Source: Euborellia annulipes (taxonomy: Eukaryota > Arthropoda > Insecta > Dermaptera > Anisolabididae). Taken from it: DNA of 64,000 nucleotides. The translations under genes and the position numbers were made by a program. This document shows, one piece after another, positions 5,859 through 60,750 of this stretch. The stretch is taken from contig JAKCPI010026338.1 in NCBI GenBank assembly GCA_023213315.1, positions 51,836 to 115,835 on the forward strand. Direction: 5' to 3'. A model generated the notes under the pieces. The model did not search any database, had not been told where the DNA came from, and worked only from the letters and a program-made list of their open reading frames with translations. Within the stretch, counting starts at the first letter, position 1, and every line of letters starts with the position of its first letter.

Positions 5859-7820
5859 GGGAGCGTACAAGTATTACCTAACGTAATTTTTGAAGATTTT
5901 TTACCCCCCCCTCCCCCATGAAGAAGTAAGAGTGGCCTATTGTTGTATGATGAAATGGAAATTTCCGATAGATTTAACCAATTTCTTGTGGACTTATCTG
6001 GTGGGATTGTTGGGGAAGGTGACGATATTTTGGCGACAAATATGAGATATAATGGGGATTTTTTTAACACTCGATCAATTTTTCTCGATCCTACGAATAG
6101 TAATGAAATTTTAAAAATATTAATTGAACTAAAAAAATACTAAGTCTTGTGGCCCCGATGGCATTAATAATTATATTGTGAAAAAATGCGCATATAGTAT
6201 TTGTGAACCGCTGTCTATCCTCATTAATGAATCCTTGGCGAGTGGCTGTTTTCCCAAGATCTTTAAAAGCTCAAAAATTTTCCCTCTTTATAAAGGAAAG
6301 GGAAATAGACAACTTGTGGAGAATTATAGACCAATATCTCTACAATCTACCTTTTCTAAAATTCTAGAAAAAGCTATGGCTAAAAGGGTGATTGCATTTT
6401 TAGAAAGATTTAACTTGATTAATCCCAACCAACATGGTTTTTTAAAAAACAAAAATACATCGTCAGCACTTTTTTCTCTTGTAAATGAAATTTATAAGGG
6501 TTTGGATTGTGGAGAGCACACTATGCTTGCGTCATTAGATATCAGCAAAGCGTTTGACTGTGTCAGACATGACTCGTTGTTATATTGTCTTGATAGACTG
6601 GGATTTCGAGGTAAAGCGTTAGACTGGTTTAAAAGTTACCTTTCTGATCGCACACAATTTGTTACTTTAAATGATACACAGTCAAGAGTGCTAGACGTTA
6701 AGGTTGGGGTGCTCCAAGGCAGTGTCTTGGGCCCACTACTATATATTTTATATGTAAATGACATAACCCTTGATAGCGGAAGACTAACGTCATATGCAGA
6801 TGATACTACACTGGTCTTGGGAAGAAGGTCATATGAGCGTGCCTGTCAACTTACAACTGTTGCCATAAATGACATTGAAATTTTTTTTAACAAGAAAGGC
6901 CTTAAATTAAATAAGGATAAAACAGCAATTTTACATTTTCATTTGAACAAGGGGAGGGAAATTATATCTGATGGATTGCCTGGGGGATATGATACCATTC
7001 AAACAACTAAGATTCTGGGGCTGCATTTTGATGCCAACATGAGATGGGACACCCATGTGGATGCTCTATGCAGGAGGCTTAATCCCATATGTTATGGAAT
7101 GTTAAAGTTAAAAAACCTTACAACTAATGACGTATGTCTTACCTATTATTATGCTAATTTTCACTCAATCATGACATGGGATAGTATTTTGGGGCGGGTC
7201 GTCGCATGCCATCAGAGTCTTTAGGGCCCAGAAGCGGGTTGTAAGAGTCCTTGTGGGTGCATCATGGGATGCACATTGTAGAGATATCTTTGTCTCCCTT
7301 GGCGTGTTGCCCCTGCCTTGCGTCCATATCATGGAAACAATATTGTATATTAGAAGGCATCCGGATCTTGTTACAATTGGAAATGAACATGCGCGGTCCA
7401 ATAGAAGATTCGATTTAAGGGTACCGGGACTTAGAACAGAGACTTGTAAAAAGAATCCTCTTTACCGGGCCGTTACTTTTTATAATCGTCTCCCCGTAGA
7501 GATTAAGAAAATCGGCAATTTTTCAAATTTTAAAAACGAACTAAAAAATTACTTAATTAAAAAATGTTATTATAGTGTAAGTGAATTTATCCAATGTTAA
7601 TTCAATTAATTATTGTATACAATTATGTTATTTGCTTTGTAATTTTTATTGTGCATACTGTATTTGACAATTCCAATATTCTTCGGAATCCAATGGAAAA
7701 TAAATAAATGAAATGAAATGTAACGCGCCGTAACATTTTTCTGGACCCCAAATACCAGTTACGTAACTCGTTGTTCCCCACTCCCCCCAAATTGCGTTAC
7801 GTAATACTTGTACGCTCCCT
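5859..7820. mobile_element. Foldback element interrupted by the LINE
   Basis: GGGAGCGTACAAGTATTAC at 5860 is inverted as GTAATACTTGTACGCTCCC at 7801-7819. The inner edges (TAACGTAA, C-run; G-run, TTACGTAA) are also related. The LINE at 5922-7724 lies between the two ends, so this is probably a short MITE split by the LINE. Superfamily unknown. Confidence 0.5.
5922..7724 (+). pseudogene. 5'-truncated LINE reverse transcriptase (Jockey/CR1-like)
   Basis: Encodes the reverse transcriptase half of ORF2 of a non-LTR retrotransposon. Frames: 5940-6143, then 6139-7224, then about 7194-7600, so two frameshifts (near 6140 and 7193) break it. Visible motifs in order: an N-terminal region ending in SCGPDGINN; YRPISLQSTFSKILEKAM; LDISKAFDCV (first catalytic Asp); GVLQGSVLGPLLYILYVNDI; SYADDTTLVL (catalytic Asp pair); LNKDKTAILHF; and a C-terminal tail with YNRLPVEIKK and CYYSVSEF. 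The 5' endonuclease is missing. It ends in an AATAAATAAATGAAATG tail near 7700-7724, as in target-primed insertions. Few defects suggest moderately recent insertion. The motifs fit the Jockey/CR1 group; the exact clade is not resolved. Confidence 0.85.
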
Positions 7821-18456: not shown

Positions 18457-19478
18457 TTTAGTTAAAATGACAAATAAATACAAACAAAATAACAAAATTT
18501 TCGGATTATTTATACCATTTTCTAAAAATGTATATCCGGGATATGATAATTATAGGATAATTATTTTGAATAATAACAATTATCAATCTATTAGAATGCC
18601 AATTTCATACAATAGTTATGATCTAAAAGAATTAATAATAAAATCTGTAAAAAAAGTAATTCATGAATAGTCAGACATGAAATTTTAATTTAAATAATAT
18701 TTATAAACATATTTATAGATGTAAGCCCTAATAAAATTTAAGAATAGAGAACTAAGTAAAAATATCATTTAGATTTTAGTTAAAGTGACAAACAAAATAA
18801 CCAAATTTTCGGGTTATTTATTTATACCTTCCAAAAATGTATATCCGAAATATTATGATTATTTTGAATAATAGCAATTATTAATCTATTAGGGTGCGTA
18901 CACACCTGCGCTCTGCTCCGCTCGCGAGCACCATGTTCGTTAGATGTGTACGGGTTTTGAGATGCTCGCGAGCTGCTCGAGAGTCGCTCGCGAGCTGCTC
19001 GCCGCGATCCATCTCTTGTCGGCTTTTTCGACAAACCCTTTGATGGTTCGCGGCTCAGATTTGGACGGCGCGCTGCGGTGCCGCGAGCGGCTCGCGAGCA
19101 AAATATAAAATAGACCTACTTTTAGCCTTTATAAGTCTTCTCTAAATCATTATTTAAATATTTTTTTTAATATTATCATCTTCTATGTACCTCAGAGACC
19201 AGGGAGGTTAATTATATGTATATTATTTCCTTAAAATATAGGCCTATGATGATTTTATATAGTATTTTTTAAGTAAATTTCAATATCAGTTTTCAATAAA
19301 TGAAGAATTAATCAAATATTTTCAAAGGATCGGGTTTAATAAAAAAAAAAATTATATAAAATATAAATTGATATTAAAATTTATTATTTTAAATAGAAGA
19401 ATTTCGATGGCTGAGTGGCAATATATAAGGATCAGGAAGATGTATGGCAGCCAGCAAATGATAAAAAATCCATTTGAT

Positions 19479-19525
19479 TATCGTCGACGTTTCGGGATCA
19501 CGTCGATCCCATCTTCAGGACCTAC
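19479..19525 (-). ncRNA. Hammerhead-like ribozyme, all core bases present
   Basis: Minus strand: CTGAAGA, stem II TGGGATC/GATCCC around loop GACGT, GAAAC, then GTC (H17 = C). Stem I pairs GTC with GAC immediately outside the core. Stem III is the minimal A-C/G-U pair with no loop, so cleavage would need a dimer, as for minimal type I hammerheads. Confidence 0.65.
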
Positions 19526-19699
19526 GGTCATCAAGACATTTTTATTTGGTGTTAATTCGGCAAAATACACACAATTCTTACAAACATTTTTTATAAAAAA
19601 CAAAATCGTATCGTAAGTGTTTTGTTTTTTATAAAAAATGTTTGTAAGAATTGTTTGTATTTGCCGAATTAACACCAAATAAAATGTCTTGATGACCGT

Positions 19700-19745
19700 A
19701 GGTCCTGAAGATGGGATCGACGTGATCCCGAAACGTGACGATAAT
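19700..19745 (+). ncRNA. Hammerhead-like motif with G at the cleavage position
   Basis: Same sequence as its inverted partner, but GAAACGTG replaces GAAACGTC. G at position 17 is not permitted in hammerheads, so this copy should be inactive. Confidence 0.6.
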
Positions 19746-20571
19746 CAAATAGATTTTTTATCATTTGCTGGCTGCCATACATCTTCCTGATCCTTAAATT
19801 TATTATTTTTATATTAAATAGACTTGACAAATAATCTCTGACATTCGAGTAAAATTCTTATATTGACCCCTTATTTGTTGCGACCTCAAGTCCATCACAA
19901 GTTCACTACCATTCTGTTTTTTAAATAGATTAGTATACCACCAACGTCGTCGTCTCCTTTTCTTTTTTGACAAACTTGCCATTAGCAAAAAAGCACCACT
20001 CATAACCGAAACGGCAAGAGCGTTTTCTCTATCTCGCCTCAGAGACATTATTATCTACACCAAATAATTTAAATGTTTTTTATTAGTAATTAGGCGCGCT
20101 CAGCAACACAATCTATTTGCGATTAATAATTATAAATAATTAATAATAAAAATTCCAAATTAATTAAAATGTTCGTGGCTTTTCTTTGGATCGCGGCAGG
20201 TTCGTCAAAATGAATAATTTCAATGAAAATGGAACGAGCAACGAACACGAGCCGCGAACTGCTCGCGAGCGGAGCAGAGCGCAGGTGTGTACGCACCCTT
20301 AGAATGCTAATTTCACGCATGAGTTTTTTTTATTTTTATTTATTTATTATGCCTCTAGTCAGGACACAATAGTTGTGATCCAAAAAAATTTATATTTTTG
20401 GTAATTAACCTGTAAAAAAAAATGAATAGCCGTCCATGAATTTAAAATAATATCCGCCACATGTCAGGAACTTTAAATGTCAAGATTAATTAATAACCTT
20501 TAAAATAAGAGATATGAATCTGGATCCCCTGTCCTTCAAAAATTACTATCCCTAAATAAACAAAAAAAAAA

Positions 20572-21226: not shown

Positions 21227-21784
21227 ATAACCATACTTTATTGTTCAAAAGCTTCGTGTCACGTCCCAGGGAGGTGCCTAACTTAAATATAAAATTTCAA
21301 CCTCCTAGCTCTTTTCGTCTTGAGATGTTTTGTTCACAGTCACACAGACAGACCATGTCGCGTAAACCACTTTTTTTTTGGATTCAGGGGACCTCAAAAC
21401 GTGTAGGGTGAGTAGGGATGAAACGATACCACTGAGGTATCGATACTTTTACTCGATACTGGTATCGGTCGCAAAGTATCGAGTACCTACTCGTTATCGA
21501 TTGAAAAATATCGATACTTACTCGTATCGGTCAATTTTTTCGTACAATTAAAGATAAGCAAGCCTGGACCCCAAATTTCTATTCTTATTCTTAAATAAAT
21601 ATATATTATTAAATAACGGTTATCGTAAAAGTCTTAAATGGCCCAAGTTGCCGAAAGGACTGTGTGAATGCGAGAGTGAATGAGAAAAAAGTGTGAGTGT
21701 ATAAAAAAAAAAAAAGATAAGCAAAAACTTTCAAAAACTTTGCAGCCAGGAGATTAAAGGAAAAATCTTTTAATAAATTTCTAT

Positions 21785-21832
21785 TTGCTGACGTTTCGGT
21801 CGCCAATCGCGGCCTTCATCATCAGAGACCTC
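21785..21832 (-). ncRNA. Hammerhead-like motif with three extra bases
   Basis: Minus strand: CTGATGA followed by an extra TGA, stem II GGCCGC/GCGACC with one mismatch, GAAAC, GTC. The additional trinucleotide next to the core probably impairs folding. Confidence 0.5.
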
Positions 21833-21944
21833 CGAGTAGCAAGTATAAGATAATATTTTTGTACATATCAAAGTAAAAATAAATTGTATATTTTTAATTG
21901 CAATGAATATTAAAATACCTAAGATCTTGTATAATTGACAATAC

Positions 21945-21988
21945 TTGCCCTGATAAAGGTCGTGATTGGAGACCGAAACGTCGGCAAA
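21945..21988 (+). ncRNA. Hammerhead-like motif with core G8 changed
   Basis: TTGCC, CTGATAA (G8 to A), stem II GGTC/GACC, GAAAC, GTC, GGCAA. Stem I TTGCC/GGCAA is perfect. The change is at the catalytic G8, so activity is unlikely. Confidence 0.6.
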
Positions 21989-22781
21989 TAGTAAATTAAA
22001 TAAAATTTTTTATTTAATCTCCTGGCTGCAAAGTTGCTGCGAATATTGATTAAATCTCCACAACCATAAAACATCAAGTTCTTGGAGAAAAAAAAAAAAA
22101 AAAAAAAAAACAACGACGACTAAGAAAAAATTTCAGTTTTAGAGGTGCTACCCAAAATAATAATTTTTCAAGATGTTTCCCTGTTGAACACGCAAATAAT
22201 AAAGATTAAAATACAGTAAGTAGTACAAACCATTCCACTTATTTCTATTGTAAATAAGAACAAATGTACGTAAATGTTCTTCCTATACCTAATTAATTAT
22301 CGCATACGTGGACCGAGTATCGATACGAGTATTTTTGACCGATACTTACTTGGTACTCGATTCCAAAGTATCGTAGTAAGTATTTACTCGTATCGTTTCA
22401 TCCCTATCTATCAAAATCTCGACATCGAATTTTTGACATGAATCCAATACTTTCTCTATATATTAACATATATATAGAGGTAAGAGAAAGTAAAAAATGT
22501 TATTAACTTCTATGACTGAAATATGTTTCAATAGTTGCTTGTGTGAAATATGTTCCTTTTAACTTTTAAACATCTAGGCCCAGCCCTAAGAAACAAACAG
22601 CTTCGATGATTACTGCTTCTTTTTATCAGGGAGCCCTAGCCAAAGCGCTAGCAAGGGGCAGTATAAATGGAAGACAGTGGGAATGAAGGAGTTAAAAGAA
22701 TGGTTGAATAAAAAGTTTGAGAAACGCTGTTTATAATTATTCAATACATTTAATTCTTGTTTTGTTTATATTCTTAACTTT

Positions 22782-45160: not shown

Positions 45161-45200
45161 CGGAGACGTTTCGAGTTATATTTAATATCTCATCAGTCCG
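45161..45200 (-). ncRNA. Hammerhead-like ribozyme with perfect stem I, weak stem II
   Basis: Minus strand: CGGA, CTGATGA, an AT-rich stem-loop (GATATTAAATATAACTC), GAAAC, GTC, TCCG. All catalytic bases match the consensus. Stem I is 4 perfect pairs; stem II has only two standard pairs next to the core plus an inner AT hairpin. Unlike the other units, its flanks lack the CAGCCAG block. GAAACGTCTCCGAG near 52617 is a 3'-half relative. Confidence 0.55.
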
Positions 45201-47230: not shown

Positions 47231-47584
47231 GACACCTAAATTCAGAGTGTTTCGAAATACATTTTTAGAGCATTATTTAAAAAATAAATAAAAATTTAAA
47301 TTATAAAAATATTTTATAGCCTATTATTTAAGGGGAATGTTTAATTATAGACCACATTTTTGTATTAATTATTTATTAAAAATATATAAATAAGATTACT
47401 GTATATTCGGCGTAACCAGAAATTTTTGATGGGGGGAGGGTTTCAAGAAAATTTTTTCAAATATTTGAAAAATTTCCCTATATGAATAGGCCTAAGGATT
47501 AATTTTTGGATTGTCGATGATTTTCAATTAGAGTCTCCAAAAATAGCAGCCAGATTAATGAAAAGAAAAAAAACATTGTATTTT

Positions 47585-47630
47585 TTGCCCTGAGGATGAG
47601 AGTGACGGACGCTCGAAACGTCGCCTTCAA
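47585..47630 (+). ncRNA. Single hammerhead-like motif (CTGAGGA)
   Basis: CTGAGGA fits CUGANGA with N = G. Stem II pairs GAGAGT with ACGCTC with one A-G mismatch. GAAAC and GTC follow. Stem I is poor (one pair). The outer AGCAGCCAG block at 47547 is the one seen beside other units. No inverted partner nearby. Confidence 0.5.
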
Positions 47631-47940
47631 AATATAAATATATTTATTGATTGCTCTTTCCTGCAAATCACGTCTATCAATAAATAGCAATGATTTTTCT
47701 TTAGCCACCTGATAAAAGATATTTACCGAATAGAATATCTCTCTGCGCCACTCAATAATAGAAGGTACAGTGGATATTAAGCGGATGTCTGTGTGTGTGT
47801 ATAAAGGGATTATACCAAGGGTGGTGAAGGGGTGGTTATTGGGCTGCAACGTAGAGGGGATGGGTCGCCAGTCTCTCCTGAGGTTCGCTGACAAATTGTT
47901 TAATTAACACAGCTCGTTAAAACTAATTACTCCCAACGGC

Positions 47941-48660: not shown

Positions 48661-49150
48661 TTTTTTTTTAACACTCACTTTTTTCTCATTCACACTCACA
48701 CTCACACACGCATTCATACTGACTTTTCGGCATCTCAGGCCATATAAGACTTTGACACAAGGGCCGATACAAGGGGGGAAAGGGGGTAATTACCCCCTGA
48801 GATTTGAAAAAAATACTTTTTTTCGAAATTTTTTTAATGTAAAATTTTAAAAATTAATACTTAAAAATTTGATTTGTATTTATTTTCTGGCAAACAAGTA
48901 CTGAATGCGCCTTTAAATTACCGAAATTAAGAAAAAAAATGTGTGCTGTGCGACCAGTCACTCCAGATTACCTCCCCCCCCGAAAAACACCTCTGGATCC
49001 GCCATTGCTTTGACAATAACCGTTATTTGAATATATATGTATTTGGTGTCCAGACGTTTGGATACCAAATGACTTAAATCTTTGAACTACCTGGAGTTCA
49101 AACCACGACCCTTGGTATACAATGCAGGCGCGCTACCAACTACACCAAGC
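48661..49150 (-). mobile_element. Family S SINE split by a hAT-like element
   Basis: Poly-T, ACTCACACTCACACACGC, TCAGGCCATATAAGACTTTG, then the hAT-like insertion at 48758-49007, then AATAACCGTTATTTG, a diverged palindrome and a head ending ACACCAAGCCC. Confidence 0.75.
48758..49007. mobile_element. hAT-like family B element with perfect CTTTGACA duplication
   Basis: CAAGGGCCGATACAAGG to CTGGATCCGCCATTG, 250 bp, with CTTTGACA on both sides (48750-48757, 49008-49015). Removing it restores the SINE body. It contains the inverted family H hairpin piece (CGACCAGTCACTCCAGATTA). Confidence 0.85.
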
Positions 49151-52492: not shown

Positions 52493-54160
52493 AAAAATTA
52501 AGTCTATTTTCTTTTATTAAATTACTAAATTAATCAGTCCTTGCGTAAAGGAATGACATCTTTATTATTATATAAACACATGAGATTGTTGGTCGATTTG
52601 GGCGCTAGAGTTTCTTTGAAACGTCTCCGAGATTAGAACCAGCATGCAGAGTCTTTTTTATTGACTGCTCCTGCCCATAATTATTCATAAAATTGAATAT
52701 ATTATTTCACTTTTATTGATCTAAATACAAGAAACAAATGGAAATTGTATTCAAGTTCGGCCGAATAGACCAGACAAATCCCAATCAAATGGGATCGGTC
52801 CATTGTACGGCCGTGCACTGCCGAATACAGCCGGCGATCGTTCGGCTCTGTTCGGCCCGTACACGGCCGTTCTTCATTCGGTCGAAAACGGCTCCAGTGG
52901 ACGGCCAGCCAAAGAAAAAAAAAAAACTTTTTGCTCCCCTCACCTTGGAAAGCTTTTTGCTGGAGACCATATTTATAATGGATTTATTTTGTCTTTTGAT
53001 TTTTTTTATTAACTTTTTAAGGACATTTTGAGACCAAACTTTTATGGTTATATATTGTACTTTTTTGCATAATATTATTATTCTTTTCCACCTCTTGCAC
53101 ATTTTATTTTTTAAGTTTTAATTTAAAAATCATTTAAATAAGAAAGAAAAGATGATTTCGAGTTGTTTTGTTCTTGATTTATGTAACAATTAGTTAGCTA
53201 ATTGGGGTGTGGTTTTCCCTTGTCTTAAGACTTGAGATGAAAAGGAACTCCTGGAAGGAACTCTCTGCTAGGAAATGGCCAACGGCGCCTTCTTCTCGCT
53301 TGCCATTACAACAGCTAAACGATTCTGTGGCCGTGGCGTAACTTTGATGCCTGGGATCCTATGGGCGTTGAAATGTACTCGAGTGTGTGTGTGTGTGTGC
53401 TCGTTGGCAAGCCCGTTCTCCCCTCGGGAACCCCCTTCTCTGCCCCTGGAACGGCTCATGCATACATTCATGATACGGCCGCGCTAAAGATCCCCAAATA
53501 TCACAGACACTCGAATTAGATTTTATCATTTCATTCCTTTCGTTTTGCCATGACTGTTTGTTCAACGGGGGCCCGGCCATTTGTTACGCCCCTTATATCG
53601 TGCCATTTTTTGAAATTTACATGACAAAATCGCTGCATTTCTCTCTCCAGTATTGGACTAAAACGAGAATATACTTTTATTAAAACTGCAAACAATTCAA
53701 AAAATGGATAAGCTAAAGTAATTGAGTGAATTTTTTATTCTATTTACAATGATCGCTAGGGAAGGGAATTCAAAAGGGATAGATGGAAATTAAGAAAACA
53801 ATTGAATACTAGAATCTTGTATGAATTAAATTATAATAAAAAAAGGCGTAGCATTCATTATTAAAATTTTTTATTTATTTCTAAGATAAAGTGTTCAAAG
53901 CCGTGGAGCTCCCAGCTTGGTTTAAGGTTTAACCCCCCCCCCCCTCTAGGCTCTAGGGCATTAACGTATGGTCTTTTCACTTAAATAACATTTTTGAATT
54001 ATTAACCATTAAATCTTATTTTCAAGAGCCAATTTAGGTTTCTCTCAAGGCGGAAAATTTTATAAAAAAATTTTTTAAAGATGAGTGATTTAGGTTTGGA
54101 GCTCAAAAAGCCGGGTCATCCCAGAAAATTTAATCGATGCAGGTACGTTTATAGCTGAAT
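52493..54160. other. Mixed unique DNA, no supported gene
   Basis: 52740-52910 is GC-rich with repeated TTCGGCCG/CGGCCGT words in both orientations (GTACGGCCGTGCAC, CCGTACACGGCC). 53228-53480 is near-average GC with a (GT)n run. Open frames of 60-105 codons occur on both strands at the same place, as expected from GC-rich words, and none has recognisable domains. Confidence 0.45.
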
Positions 54161-54214
54161 GTTCGTATTTAAATTTGGTAGAAAAAAAAATGAGCAACGC
54201 AGATAATATTAAAA

Positions 54215-54262
54215 CCAGGACCATCGTTTCGGTCAAATAATGGGACCATCTTCAGGACCAGG
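54215..54262 (-). ncRNA. Hammerhead-like motif, position 16.1 altered
   Basis: Minus strand: CTGAAGA, stem II GGTC/GACC, GAAAC, then GAT instead of GTH. The lost U16.1 breaks the A15.1-U16.1 pair, so activity is unlikely. Confidence 0.5.
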
Positions 54263-54346
54263 TTAATGTCTGAAATAAATATACCAGGAAACCGAAGGAA
54301 CTTTGCAGTTGGAGATTAAATAAAAAAATCTTTTATTTAATTTTTA

Positions 54347-54391
54347 CTTGCCGACGTTTCGGTCCTCTGTCACGACCTTCATCAGGGCAAA
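54347..54391 (-). ncRNA. Hammerhead-like ribozyme, fully consensus
   Basis: Minus strand: TTGCC, CTGATGA, stem II AGGTC/GACC around a GTGACAGAG loop, GAAAC, GTC, GGCAA. Stem I TTGCC/GGCAA gives 5 perfect pairs. Every conserved core base is present. Stem III is the minimal AC/GU, so a dimeric fold is expected. The best candidate in the window. Confidence 0.75.
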
Positions 54392-54578
54392 TAATTGTCA
54401 ACAATACACGATGTTAGGTATTTTGATATATACTGTAATCATATAGTATAACATTGAATCCAAGACCCCAATCAAGTAAATGATAATTTATATATATATA
54501 TAAAAATAAAAAAAAAAATGAAATTGTATATTACAGTATATATCAAAATACCTAAAATCGTGTATTGTTGACAATTAT

Positions 54579-54621
54579 TTGCCCTGATGAAGGTCGTGAC
54601 AGACGACCGAAACGGCGGCAT
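54579..54621 (+). ncRNA. Hammerhead-like motif, U16.1 changed to G
   Basis: TTGCC, CTGATGA, stem II GGTCGT/ACGACC (6 perfect pairs around GACAG), GAAAC, GGC, GGCA. Compared with its inverted partner, stem II is longer because of a compensating-looking G to C change, but GTC has become GGC. Confidence 0.65.
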
Positions 54622-55013
54622 GTAAAAATTAAATAAAAGATTTTTTTATTTAATCTCCTGGCTGCAAAGTTCCTTCGGTTTCCTGATTAAATCTCCACAG
54701 CCATAACACATTAAATTAATTAAGATTAAAAATAGAAATGTCATATCACATAATATGGGAATTAATTTTTATGCAATATATTCATGGGGAAATATAAAAA
54801 ACAAAATAAATTAATAATTAAAATAAATAATTTTTATCATAGATAGGGAACAGCATCTCCAATAAAATCCATTTGAAAAATAAAATTTAAATAAAATTAT
54901 TTTAACTTTAAAATATTGTAGGTAAGAATTTTTTAAAATTAATTTTGTTTTTAATATAAAAAAAAAAACCGTCACCTGTCAAAAATACCCGTTCGTGTAT
55001 GGCCGGCTATTAA

Positions 55014-55060
55014 CCTGGCCCTGAAGATGGTCCCATATGTGACCGAAACGTAAGCCCTGG
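55014..55060 (+). ncRNA. Hammerhead-like motif, cleavage triplet GTA
   Basis: CTGAAGA (55021), stem II GGTC/GACC with loop CCATATGT, GAAAC, GTA. H17 = A is permitted. Stem I pairs GGC with GCC after a single C-A mismatch next to the core. Confidence 0.55.
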
Positions 55061-55482
55061 TTTTAATAATAAAATGAAATAGAACTAGCTGCGTTGCTCA
55101 TTTTTTTCTATCAAATTTAAAACAGAAATTTGAATAAAAATAATTTAAATTTTTTTTTCATTAGGCTTTTAAGGTTCAAATTCAAAGAACCCGAACCCCG
55201 TCCACTCGGGAGCTCTCTCGAAATCTTTCTGATCTCTTTTTTTCATTAATTTGTTTACATATAAGCCTATTGGGATCTTTAGCATTTCAATACGCTACCT
55301 GGTGGCTTAAAGTCGAACTAGCCATTGTAGGATAAACCTTCATATGTTTAACGTGATATAAGGGACAAGACCATTTAAACATCTGATATAATTGTATTAT
55401 TTAAAAAAAAGTTATAACCCACGAGTAAACATTATTGTTAGATTAATAAATAATACATACATACACTAATATATTCACAAAT

Positions 55483-56408: not shown

Positions 56409-56973
56409 TTATTAAAATTGTTTTTTCATTGATTTTACAAATTTTTTGATTATATTCTTGCAAGTTATAGCACCAAAATGCCTAGTTGTGTTATTGGCAC
56501 ATGCATCCAAGAGGCAGGTTTTTAAAAATCATTTCACAATAATAGGAAATATTTAAAAAATCCGGCTTGGAAAGAGACCTTCCCCAAAGACTCCTATATC
56601 AACATGAGTGGATTTCTTAGCCACCCTAACGCTGCTTCATCCCGGTAAAAGCTTTAAGCCGTATCATGCATCTATGGATGAGAAAAAAACTCTCGATCAG
56701 CTTTCCAATCTGTTTCTAATAAGTAAACAGTCAAGCTGATAACAACAGAAAATGTGATTTAGAGAAGTTTTTTTCCTTCCAATCAATGCGTCAAATTGTC
56801 ACGCCTTTTACTTTTTTTTTTAATTCTATTTTAAAATTTTACTTTAATTTTAGTTAAATATCCTTATTAGATTTCGATATCTTGGGGGTCCTGGTTCGAC
56901 TCCAGGGCCTCAAATATTTTTTAAATTAAAGCTATTTAATGAAGAGTAGAAGAATGGCTGTGGTGATGATTGA
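56409..56973. other. Intergenic DNA with tRNA-like fragment
   Basis: Broken frame from 56479 as noted. At 56886-56912, GTCCTGGTTCGACTCCAGGG is a B-box-like stem, likely a SINE scrap rather than a tRNA gene because no matching 5' half precedes it. Confidence 0.4.
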
Positions 56974-57028
56974 AGAAAGGAACTCTATGAGTAGGGCAGC
57001 CAGCGAAAATAAAAAACCTTTATATTAT

Positions 57029-57075
57029 TTCGTCTACGTTTCGGGAACGCATCGCTCCCATCTTCAGGAGCTGTG
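57029..57075 (-). ncRNA. Hammerhead-like ribozyme (GTA cleavage triplet)
   Basis: Minus strand: CTGAAGA, stem II GGGA(G)C/G(T)TCCC closing GCGATGCG-type loop, GAAAC, GTA, GACG. All core bases are allowed. Stem I next to the core is two pairs. Confidence 0.6.
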
Positions 57076-57221
57076 GCCGTCAAATATTTATTAATTTAGT
57101 ACAAATATCATTACAATTATATTATTTACAAAAAGTAGTTAAAAAATGCTTACGAATTAATTGTTGAATGATATCATGATATTTGTACTAAATTAATAAA
57201 TATTTGACGGCCACAGGTCCT

Positions 57222-57260
57222 GAAGATGGGAGCGATGCGTTCCCGAAACGTAGACGAAAT
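57222..57260 (+). ncRNA. Hammerhead-like ribozyme (GTA cleavage triplet)
   Basis: Same as its partner except GGTC instead of GCTC before CTGAAGA, which gives a 3-pair stem I (GTC/GAC). All core bases are consensus; H17 = A is permitted. Confidence 0.65.
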
Positions 57261-57444
57261 AATATAAAGGTTTTTTATTTTCGCTGGCTGCCCTACTCAT
57301 AGAGTTCCTTTCTTAAAGCTATTTAAAATATCTACAACTTATAGAAGCCCTTTTTTTGATTTTCGAAAAAAAGAATTTTTTTTTTGATTATTCACATTAA
57401 ATAAAAGATGTTTAAAAAAAATTCGGTCTATATCTTATCGATAA

Positions 57445-58780: not shown

Positions 58781-58815
58781 TGCAGCCAGGAGAATAAAAA
58801 ATTATTTAAATCCTT

Positions 58816-58862
58816 TTGGTCAACGTTTCGGACGCCAATCGCGTCCTTCTTCGGGACTTGAA
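58816..58862 (-). ncRNA. Solo hammerhead-like motif with U4 changed
   Basis: Minus strand: GTC, CCGAAGA (U4 to C), stem II AGGACGC/GCGTCC around GATTG, GAAAC, GTT, GACC. Stems I and II are good, but the core U4 is lost. The outer block TGCAGCCAGGAG is at 58781-58792; no inverted partner follows. Confidence 0.55.
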
Positions 58863-58934
58863 GTCAACAAACATTTATTGAATTAAAAATGCTTTACTTT
58901 TATAACGTTTTTTTCAAACATTATTTCTTATCCC

Positions 58935-60148: not shown

Positions 60149-60750
60149 CCACTAAATGTATTTTGAAGTTTACTTATATCTGGATTCAGATGGATTGAAT
60201 GAATTACAATAAACAAATTTTCAAAATTTTTTTTATTTTTCAGGAATTCTAAGCATGACTGTCGTCATGACTGGTTTGCGCAAATTTCTGTTTCGGTCAC
60301 CACTTTGTGACCTTCATCAAGCCTAAAAATTTAAGATACGTACATTTTAAAAAACTTAAGGCTTAAATTACAATCTTACAATCTGTTTTATTAATTCTTT
60401 TATCTTATGCCTAAATTATTTTGAATACTTTTTTTACTTTTTCAAAAAACAAACTAACAAATAAAAACAAAAGAAAAAATAAAATAATTTAAGATAAAAG
60501 AATTAAATGTAAGTGTGTACGATTGTAATCTAAGATCAGATTGATTTTGTTTAAGCCTTAAGTTGTTTAAAATGTATGTATCTTAATTTTTAGGCTTGAT
60601 GAAGGTCACAAATGGTGACCGAAACTGAGAAATTTGCGCAAACCAGTCGTCATGGTTAGAATTCCTGAAAAATAAAAAAATATTTTTATTGTAATTCATT
60701 CAATACATCTGAATCCAGATACAAGTAAACTTCAAAATACATTTAGTGAG
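60149..60750. mobile_element. Palindromic unit with decayed hammerhead-like motifs (pair f)
   Basis: CTAAATGTATTTTGAAGTTT (60152) is inverted near 60730-60748. Arms of about 250 bp share CAGGAATTCTAA, GACTGGTTTGCGCAAATTTC and the hammerhead-like core. It begins directly at the right duplication of the hAT element, which landed in its edge. Confidence 0.7.
60281..60326 (-). ncRNA. Degenerate hammerhead-like motif
   Basis: Minus strand: TTGATGA (C3 to U), stem II AGGTCAC/GTGACC, GAAAC, but AG instead of GTH follows. The mirror copy at 60590-60632 (plus) has the same C3 change and GAAACTG. Both look inactive, with stem II preserved. Confidence 0.45.

Follow-up and report, generated by a model that had tools for sequence, protein, structure and literature searches.

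What kind of element would place four hammerhead-like ribozyme motifs as inverted pairs in two palindromes, one inside the other? The locus lies in a stretch of 64,000 nucleotides from Euborellia annulipes (the window), and the original prediction of nested palindromes was confirmed by arm alignments and motif searches: an inner palindrome (54285-54685) is nested in an outer one (54168-55121), each with a minus/plus pair of hammerhead-like motifs. The coordinates first proposed cover the palindromes and omit the left tail of the outer element (54134-54167). We conclude that the locus very probably consists of two nested non-autonomous insertions of Penelope-like elements (PLEs), each in the most 5'-truncated form, with head-to-head pLTRs and no coding region. 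Their parts are as follows.

54285-54443, minus strand: left arm of element C (inner), an inverted pLTR copy without tail, from the arm alignment
54527-54685, plus strand: right arm of element C, a direct pLTR copy, from the arm alignment
54686-54720, plus strand: 3' tail of element C, present on the right arm alone and carrying the CACAGCCAT motif; approximate end, with no duplication found
54134-54167, minus strand: tail of element D, about 34 nt, with a CAGCTAT motif, on the left arm only; end set by the weak duplication
54168-54268, minus strand: left arm of element D (outer), from the arm alignment
55009-55121, plus strand: right arm of element D, no tail, from the arm alignment
54126-54133, right copy 55113-55120, no strand: possible, weak 8-bp target-site duplication of element D, AAATTTAA

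Since C lies between the arms of D, we take it to have inserted into an older D. The C arms are identical in 152/160 aligned columns (95%) and the D arms in 89/117 (76%), a difference that is not a clock, as arms may stem from different templates.

The four motifs at the locus belong to the two subfamilies that had been distinguished from the sequence (CTGATGA and CTGAAGA), and our motif and arm searches likewise supported the presence of minimal hammerhead-like motifs in inverted pairs.

54343-54394, minus strand: motif C_L (core copy 54347-54391, pattern match 54356-54385), full core CTGATGA...GAAACGTC
54575-54626, plus strand: motif C_R (pattern match 54584-54613), GGC in place of GUC at the cleavage site
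54221-54257, minus strand: motif D_L (pattern match 54226-54255), GAT at the cleavage site
55012-55063, plus strand: motif D_R (pattern match 55021-55049), full core with GUA, stem I poor

Compared with the hammerhead core (C3 U4 G5 A6 N7 G8 A9 / G12 A13 A14 A15.1 / U16.1 H17), C_L and D_R comply while C_R and D_L deviate, and C_L is the only motif of the locus that joins the core to both stem I (5 bp, TTGCC/GGCAA) and stem II (4 bp, GGTC/GACC), with one extra A after A9. All core bases are kept in seven of 15 copies (A_L, C_L, D_R, E_L, E_R, G, and H45). In 14 of these 15, C_L among them, CUGANGA is separated from stem II by one additional base (A or T), so that stem II does not stack immediately on the core (pair 10.1-11.1 beside A9); a published hammerhead search discarded matches with mispairs adjoining the core (PMC3088659). 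Stem III is absent from elements A to E, in which the cleavage triplet, or an altered form of it, directly follows GAAAC. The copy at 54347-54391 (minus strand), singled out at the outset as fully consensus, thus keeps all core bases and complementary stems I and II, with the qualifications that an extra base precedes stem II and that some core bases are paired in its predicted fold.

A match to the Rfam hammerhead models had been proposed as the check, and its absence as a refutation; formally the latter is what we found, since no family reaches its gathering cut-off anywhere in the window. The best hammerhead match of C_L, to Hammerhead_3 at E 0.86 (14.4 bits, cut-off 48.5), is not significant alone, the snoRNA model snoR101 scoring nearly as high on it (13.1 bits). 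At E 10 there was no match for E_R or for a copy at 45.2 kb, and six matches over 53900-55400, all far under cut-off: microRNA precursors account for four (three models, 28.2-48 bits, cut-offs 139.7-144), and gCoV-5UTR and snoU36a for one each. We rejected a microRNA-precursor identity, as these are generic long-hairpin matches far under cut-off. As a yardstick we used five of 21 viral-contig loci with a hammerhead pattern, whose status as ribozymes is unproven; none of the five (L002, L005, L010, L019, and L020) reached the Rfam gathering score, which weakly hints that the sensitivity of Rfam is limited where stem II is preceded by an extra base.

Predicted folds were mixed. Folded alone, the C_L RNA reaches -15.5 kcal/mol (5/200 shuffles as low), and its minimum-energy fold contains stems I and II but pairs the core GAUG with CGUC, so that the hammerhead core does not stay open. 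In C_R, stem II is present and stem I is altered. In E_R, both stems are present and the CUGAAGA strand is open, with the extra U paired to the G of GAAA, and this copy comes nearest to stems I and II with an open core among the five folded alone; A_L and G47 fold otherwise, and z falls below -2 only in C_L and C_R. As predictions, these folds tell against stable activity of the isolated motifs. The inner palindrome RNA is predicted to form a long and very stable hairpin, as had been foreseen for a transcript across the locus, with a folding energy of -249.4 kcal/mol where the motif by itself reaches -15.5, and a read-through transcript should therefore hide the ribozyme in duplex.

Across the window, CTGANGA...GAAAC was matched 11 times where 0.70 matches would be expected, a number reached by none of 100 shuffles. 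A covariance model (R1) was built from seven copies belonging to A, B, E, and G, excluding the C and D copies. R1 retrieves D_R (E 3.7e-5) and D_L (E 0.018), as well as C_L (E 2.4e-15) and C_R (E 3.9e-15), whose values are not fully independent tests because B and C are closely related (82-83%, blastn). Its 15 matches at E<=1 in the window are the seven training copies, the four at C and D, copy I, two F copies, and a further one at 48722-48747 (minus strand, E 0.53). Single matches to looser patterns (559, 3021, 3472, 16151, 17635, 23770, 56964-57008, 11306, and 23960) were treated as background, since all are absent from the R1 matches at E<=1. Applied to the 21 viral loci, R1 matched the pattern site in 20 at E<0.3 and in L014 at 0.49 (15/21 part-length, with two further matches elsewhere); these loci had been preselected by sequence, so the matches say nothing on kinship. 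Eight of the viral contigs (L002, L005, L006, L010, L011, L017, L019, and L020) show by eye an extra T before stem II and plausible stems I and III.

Covariation was assessed in 14 copies (copy I excluded), mostly pairs of near-copies, so that about six subfamilies supply the independent evidence. For stem II, 88.1% of cells are paired and 5/6 pairs have changed on both sides; for stem I, only 60.0% of cells are paired. For the whole structure the covariation score was 0.432, compared to 0.199 in shuffles (0/500 as high) and at most 0.202 when the structure was slid along the alignment. Three of five measures (cells paired, cells changed on both sides, and the covariation score) lay above all 500 shuffles; the other two did not exceed them, with 8 pairs changed on both sides against a shuffle mean of 6.6 (84/500 as high) and 15 further pair types against 15.1 (312/500 as high). 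All five exceeded the slid controls. Stems that do not covary among genomic copies had been named as a second possible refutation, and the outcome goes mostly against it, three measures counting for covariation and two not. From these alignments, we read stem II as having been kept in the ancestors of these repeats. Taken together, the sequence evidence supports the identity of the motif as a hammerhead, with the caveats of the extra core-adjacent base, the lack of an Rfam gathering match, and the mixed folds.

The motif is not confined to this locus. The window holds six inverted pairs, at 19.4 kb (A), 21.7 kb (B), the present locus (C and D), 57.0 kb (E), and 60.3 kb (F, uncertain), and three single copies, at 45.2 kb, 47.6 kb (G), and 58.8 kb (I). 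Those outside the locus that entered the comparison are listed here.

19377-19809, no strand: element A, head-to-head, with a 14-bp duplication AAATTTATTATTTT on both sides and a 36-nt tail on the left arm
21736-22087, no strand: element B, head-to-head, of the C subfamily, with a tail on the right arm; end approximate
56926-57326, no strand: element E, head-to-head, with a 12-14-bp duplication (TT)AAAGCTATTTAA and a 33-35-nt tail on the left arm
60150-60748, no strand: element F, a decayed head-to-head pair with TGATGA...CGAAAC motifs and no tail; assignment uncertain
47546-47640, plus strand: element G, a single hammerhead-like copy; immediately upstream, the opposite strand holds a short inverted remnant of CTGGCTGC
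58781-58885, minus strand: copy I, a single hammerhead-bearing arm; no partner found

In all six pairs, F included, the left motif lies on the minus strand and the right one on the plus strand, that is, head to head, and none shows the tandem direct hammerhead copies that bound a retrozyme-type unit. The A arms are identical in 177/183 columns and separated by 14 nt, while the left arm of B can be aligned only from the hammerhead core outward. F, a longer inverted pair with symmetric ends (CACTAAATG/CATTTAGTG) and no GUC, could be a different element class with the same motif. The copy at 45168-45196 (minus strand) has a canonical core with no extra base, and by eye a 4-bp stem I and a long hairpin downstream; it was not found by R1, is perhaps unrelated to the PLE set, and was left out of that set and of the tail scan. 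Element A is itself enclosed by perfect 40-nt terminal inverted repeats (18891-20299) with TTA on both sides, which we take to be a PIF/Harbinger-like duplication; this is probably a DNA transposon with a PLE insert inside. A stretch of 29 nt at 20056-20084 that matches the AT-rich part of E was dropped, the neighbouring motifs being absent. Because copies were located by searching with ribozymes and arms, the counts fall short for insertions whose truncation lies downstream of the ribozyme.

Elements A to E share an anatomy beyond the ribozyme. From the centre outward, their arms follow one order: hammerhead, AT-rich stretch, GCTGC-type motif, end. The GCTGC-type motif begins 40-51 nt past GAAAC in nine of the ten arms, with an altered form nearer in D_L. 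The octamer CTGGCTGC occurs nine times in the window, eight of them shortly after a hammerhead-like motif that shares their strand and the ninth inverted beside G; its carriers are seven of the ten A to E arms, copy I, and G (inverted), and it is found nowhere else in the window. The outer ends differ between the arms: in each of the five pairs A to E, a 3' extension with the motif CARCYAT is present on exactly one arm (A_L, B_R, C_R, D_L, and E_L), and the tails of C and B have sequence in common. A scan of 14 copies found CARCYAT in these five and none in F, G, or I, with 0.037 expected per 70 nt by chance. If arms were independent at 50%, one tail per pair in five of five would have p ~0.03, which is weak.

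Where duplications are present, they fix the ends of the elements. Those of A (14 bp) and E (TTAAAGCTATTTAA, 14 bp, or 12 if the initial TT belongs to the element) are firm: among 5000 random flank pairs of the window, a shared word of at least 14 occurs in 0.08% and of at least 12 in 0.36%. Tail lengths are thus firm at A (36 nt) and E (33-35 nt), while that of D (34 nt) rests on its weak 8-bp duplication, a shared word of at least 8 occurring in 16% of random 70-nt flank pairs. At D we passed over a 9-bp shared flank word that lies inside the left arm, and preferred the 8-bp word at the tail end. The flanks of B share only A runs, those of C no word of at least 8 bp, and those of F none of at least 7 bp.

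These features match the published signature of PLEs, and we therefore read the loci as PLE insertions. Head-to-head inverted pLTRs with palindromes at their junctions are described as the abundant form of Penelope inserts, with a 31-bp tail on one pLTR and duplications of 8-10 bp or none (PMC3846280), so that the first view of the inverted placement as unusual is not supported. Minimal hammerheads lacking helix III occur in PLE pLTRs (PMC7761336; PMC6155905), in tandem copies that may cleave as dimers (PMC7761336). In an anole PLE, two reverse-transcription start sites are preceded by a hammerhead that has stems I and II, the 30-40-bp tail was matched to the segment between these sites, and the protein cut and extended both target strands with a preference for AT-rich DNA (PMC11167929). 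On this reading the ribozyme motif belongs to the pLTR, and the arrangement looks like one typical of PLEs and not like a new kind of system. What the alignments themselves bear out are the head-to-head layout, the shared anatomy, the one-arm tail of A to E, the duplications at A and E, and the paired changes in stem II.

The family is assigned from structure, the PLE protein (a telomerase-like reverse transcriptase with GIY-YIG) not being found in the window. A Pfam scan of 10 of the 11 listed ORFs gave no GIY-YIG and a single match, RVT_1 at 6133-7221. The original statement that the element contains no reverse transcriptase holds, as no stop-to-stop ORF of at least 120 aa is listed after 48329; with no PLE ORF found, we regard the copies as non-autonomous. 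Reverse-transcriptase ORF fragments (RVT_1) extend over 6133-7600 on the plus strand. The ORF at 6133-7221 has 120 listed relatives, the six named by organism all being from arthropods, namely a beetle, three leafhoppers, a moth, and a sea spider (35-39% identity), and we read it as a LINE.

How would a PLE leave a pair with a single tail? We infer a route in which the PLE reverse transcriptase and endonuclease would open both strands of an AT-rich target, and each target strand would prime cDNA synthesis on PLE RNA from either of two neighbouring internal start sites located downstream of the ribozyme. Two 5'-truncated cDNAs would then grow toward each other and meet in the middle, giving a minus-strand copy on the left and a plus-strand copy on the right, with 3' ends outside and 5' ends inside, and a target duplication; differing start sites on the two strands would leave the tail of ~35 nt on one arm. 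One tail per insertion would fit such priming on both target strands. That the rule might extend genome-wide, with each PLE insertion using both start sites, one per strand, and head-to-head pLTRs being footprints of coupled priming, is a tentative idea that we put forward with clear reservation. The start-site mechanism of the anole element was shown in vitro, and the available account of it gives two start sites with no strand difference between them (PMC11167929), and a strict rule of one site per strand would thus claim more than that work showed; we saw no such rule in the PLE literature searched, a set that does not include key PLE papers.

The main rival for the mechanism keeps the PLE identity and derives the pair from self-priming: the end of an antisense template would fold back and be extended, and the resulting palindrome would then be inserted. 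Such self-priming has been proposed for rotifer palindromes at inverted junctions (PMC3846280), and the 14 nt between the near-identical arms of A (177/183) are what a snap-back would give. A snap-back, however, draws both arms from one molecule, so that extra 3' sequence is expected on neither, yet a one-arm tail is present in 5/5 of A to E; the arms of B, alignable only from the ribozyme core outward, also sit badly with it. Self-priming does not easily yield the one-arm tail, and we consider it a possible but somewhat unlikely origin of the pairs.

Departing from PLEs altogether, the pairs could be foldback or MITE-like DNA transposons, palindromic units moved by a transposase with the ribozyme motifs carried along. 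Their inverted arms, short length, and lack of an ORF would suit this, as would the symmetric ends of F (CACTAAATG/CATTTAGTG), but the outer ends of A to E are made asymmetric by the tail, duplication lengths vary (14, 12-14, and perhaps 8 bp), and subfamilies with differing arms keep the order of ribozyme, AT-rich stretch, GCTGC motif, and tail. Symmetric ends with a duplication of fixed length, as expected of TIR elements and MITEs, are thus not seen in A to E, and we hold this origin to be improbable; for F, symmetric at its ends and with no shared flank word, it may apply. Still less probable is a retrozyme-like locus that makes self-cleaved or circular RNA today, with a regulatory role for the inverted layout. 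Metazoan retrozymes with type I hammerheads do exist (PMC7229834) and 7/15 copies keep all core bases, but each pair offers one sense copy per strand instead of the tandem copies described for PLE hammerheads (PMC7761336), C_L alone at the locus has the core and both stems, and the inner palindrome is predicted to form a long hairpin (-249.4 against -15.5 kcal/mol). Chance palindromes with chance motif resemblance, for which the AT-rich sequence and the lack of an Rfam gathering match might speak, are scarcely credible given 11 pattern matches against 0.70 expected, the held-out matches of R1, and the paired changes in stem II.

As PLE insertions, the solo pairs are expected to be inert now, because sense and antisense ribozymes would pair together and no tandem partner is available to form a dimer; perhaps they are a source of small RNAs. 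The find itself is ordinary, ribozyme-bearing PLE ends being what it amounts to. Its value lies in the evidence it brings to the open question of PLE integration and of the reason for head-to-head pLTRs: in short pairs that lack coding sequence and have legible duplications and tails, both ends of an integration can be seen side by side, and a genome-wide count of tails per pair could therefore test priming on both strands against self-priming. A possible rule of one tail per insertion is the part worth such a test.

Minimal type I hammerheads of PLEs were reportedly treated by Cervera and de la Pena in 2014 and by Lunse et al. in 2017, and the present motifs are like them in the absence of stem III (GAAACGUC), the short stem II, and the location in pLTRs. 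The closest likeness in layout is to Penelope elements of Adineta vaga (Pen2a_Av and others; PMC3846280), which share head-to-head pLTRs, junction palindromes, variable duplications, and a tail on one inverted pLTR (31 bp there), and for which solo pLTRs are mentioned; between their pLTRs lies an ORF or captured DNA, whereas here nothing recognisable lies between the arms. Poseidon PAc of Anolis carolinensis (PMC11167929) is alike in hammerhead stems I and II, a 30-40-bp tail, and AT-rich targets, a likeness of description and not of sequence, and differs in being full-length with a protein, upon whose addition alone its hammerhead cut. Metazoan retrozymes (PMC7229834), finally, are likewise non-autonomous and carry a type I hammerhead, but their ribozyme copies stand in tandem, whereas those described here are inverted.
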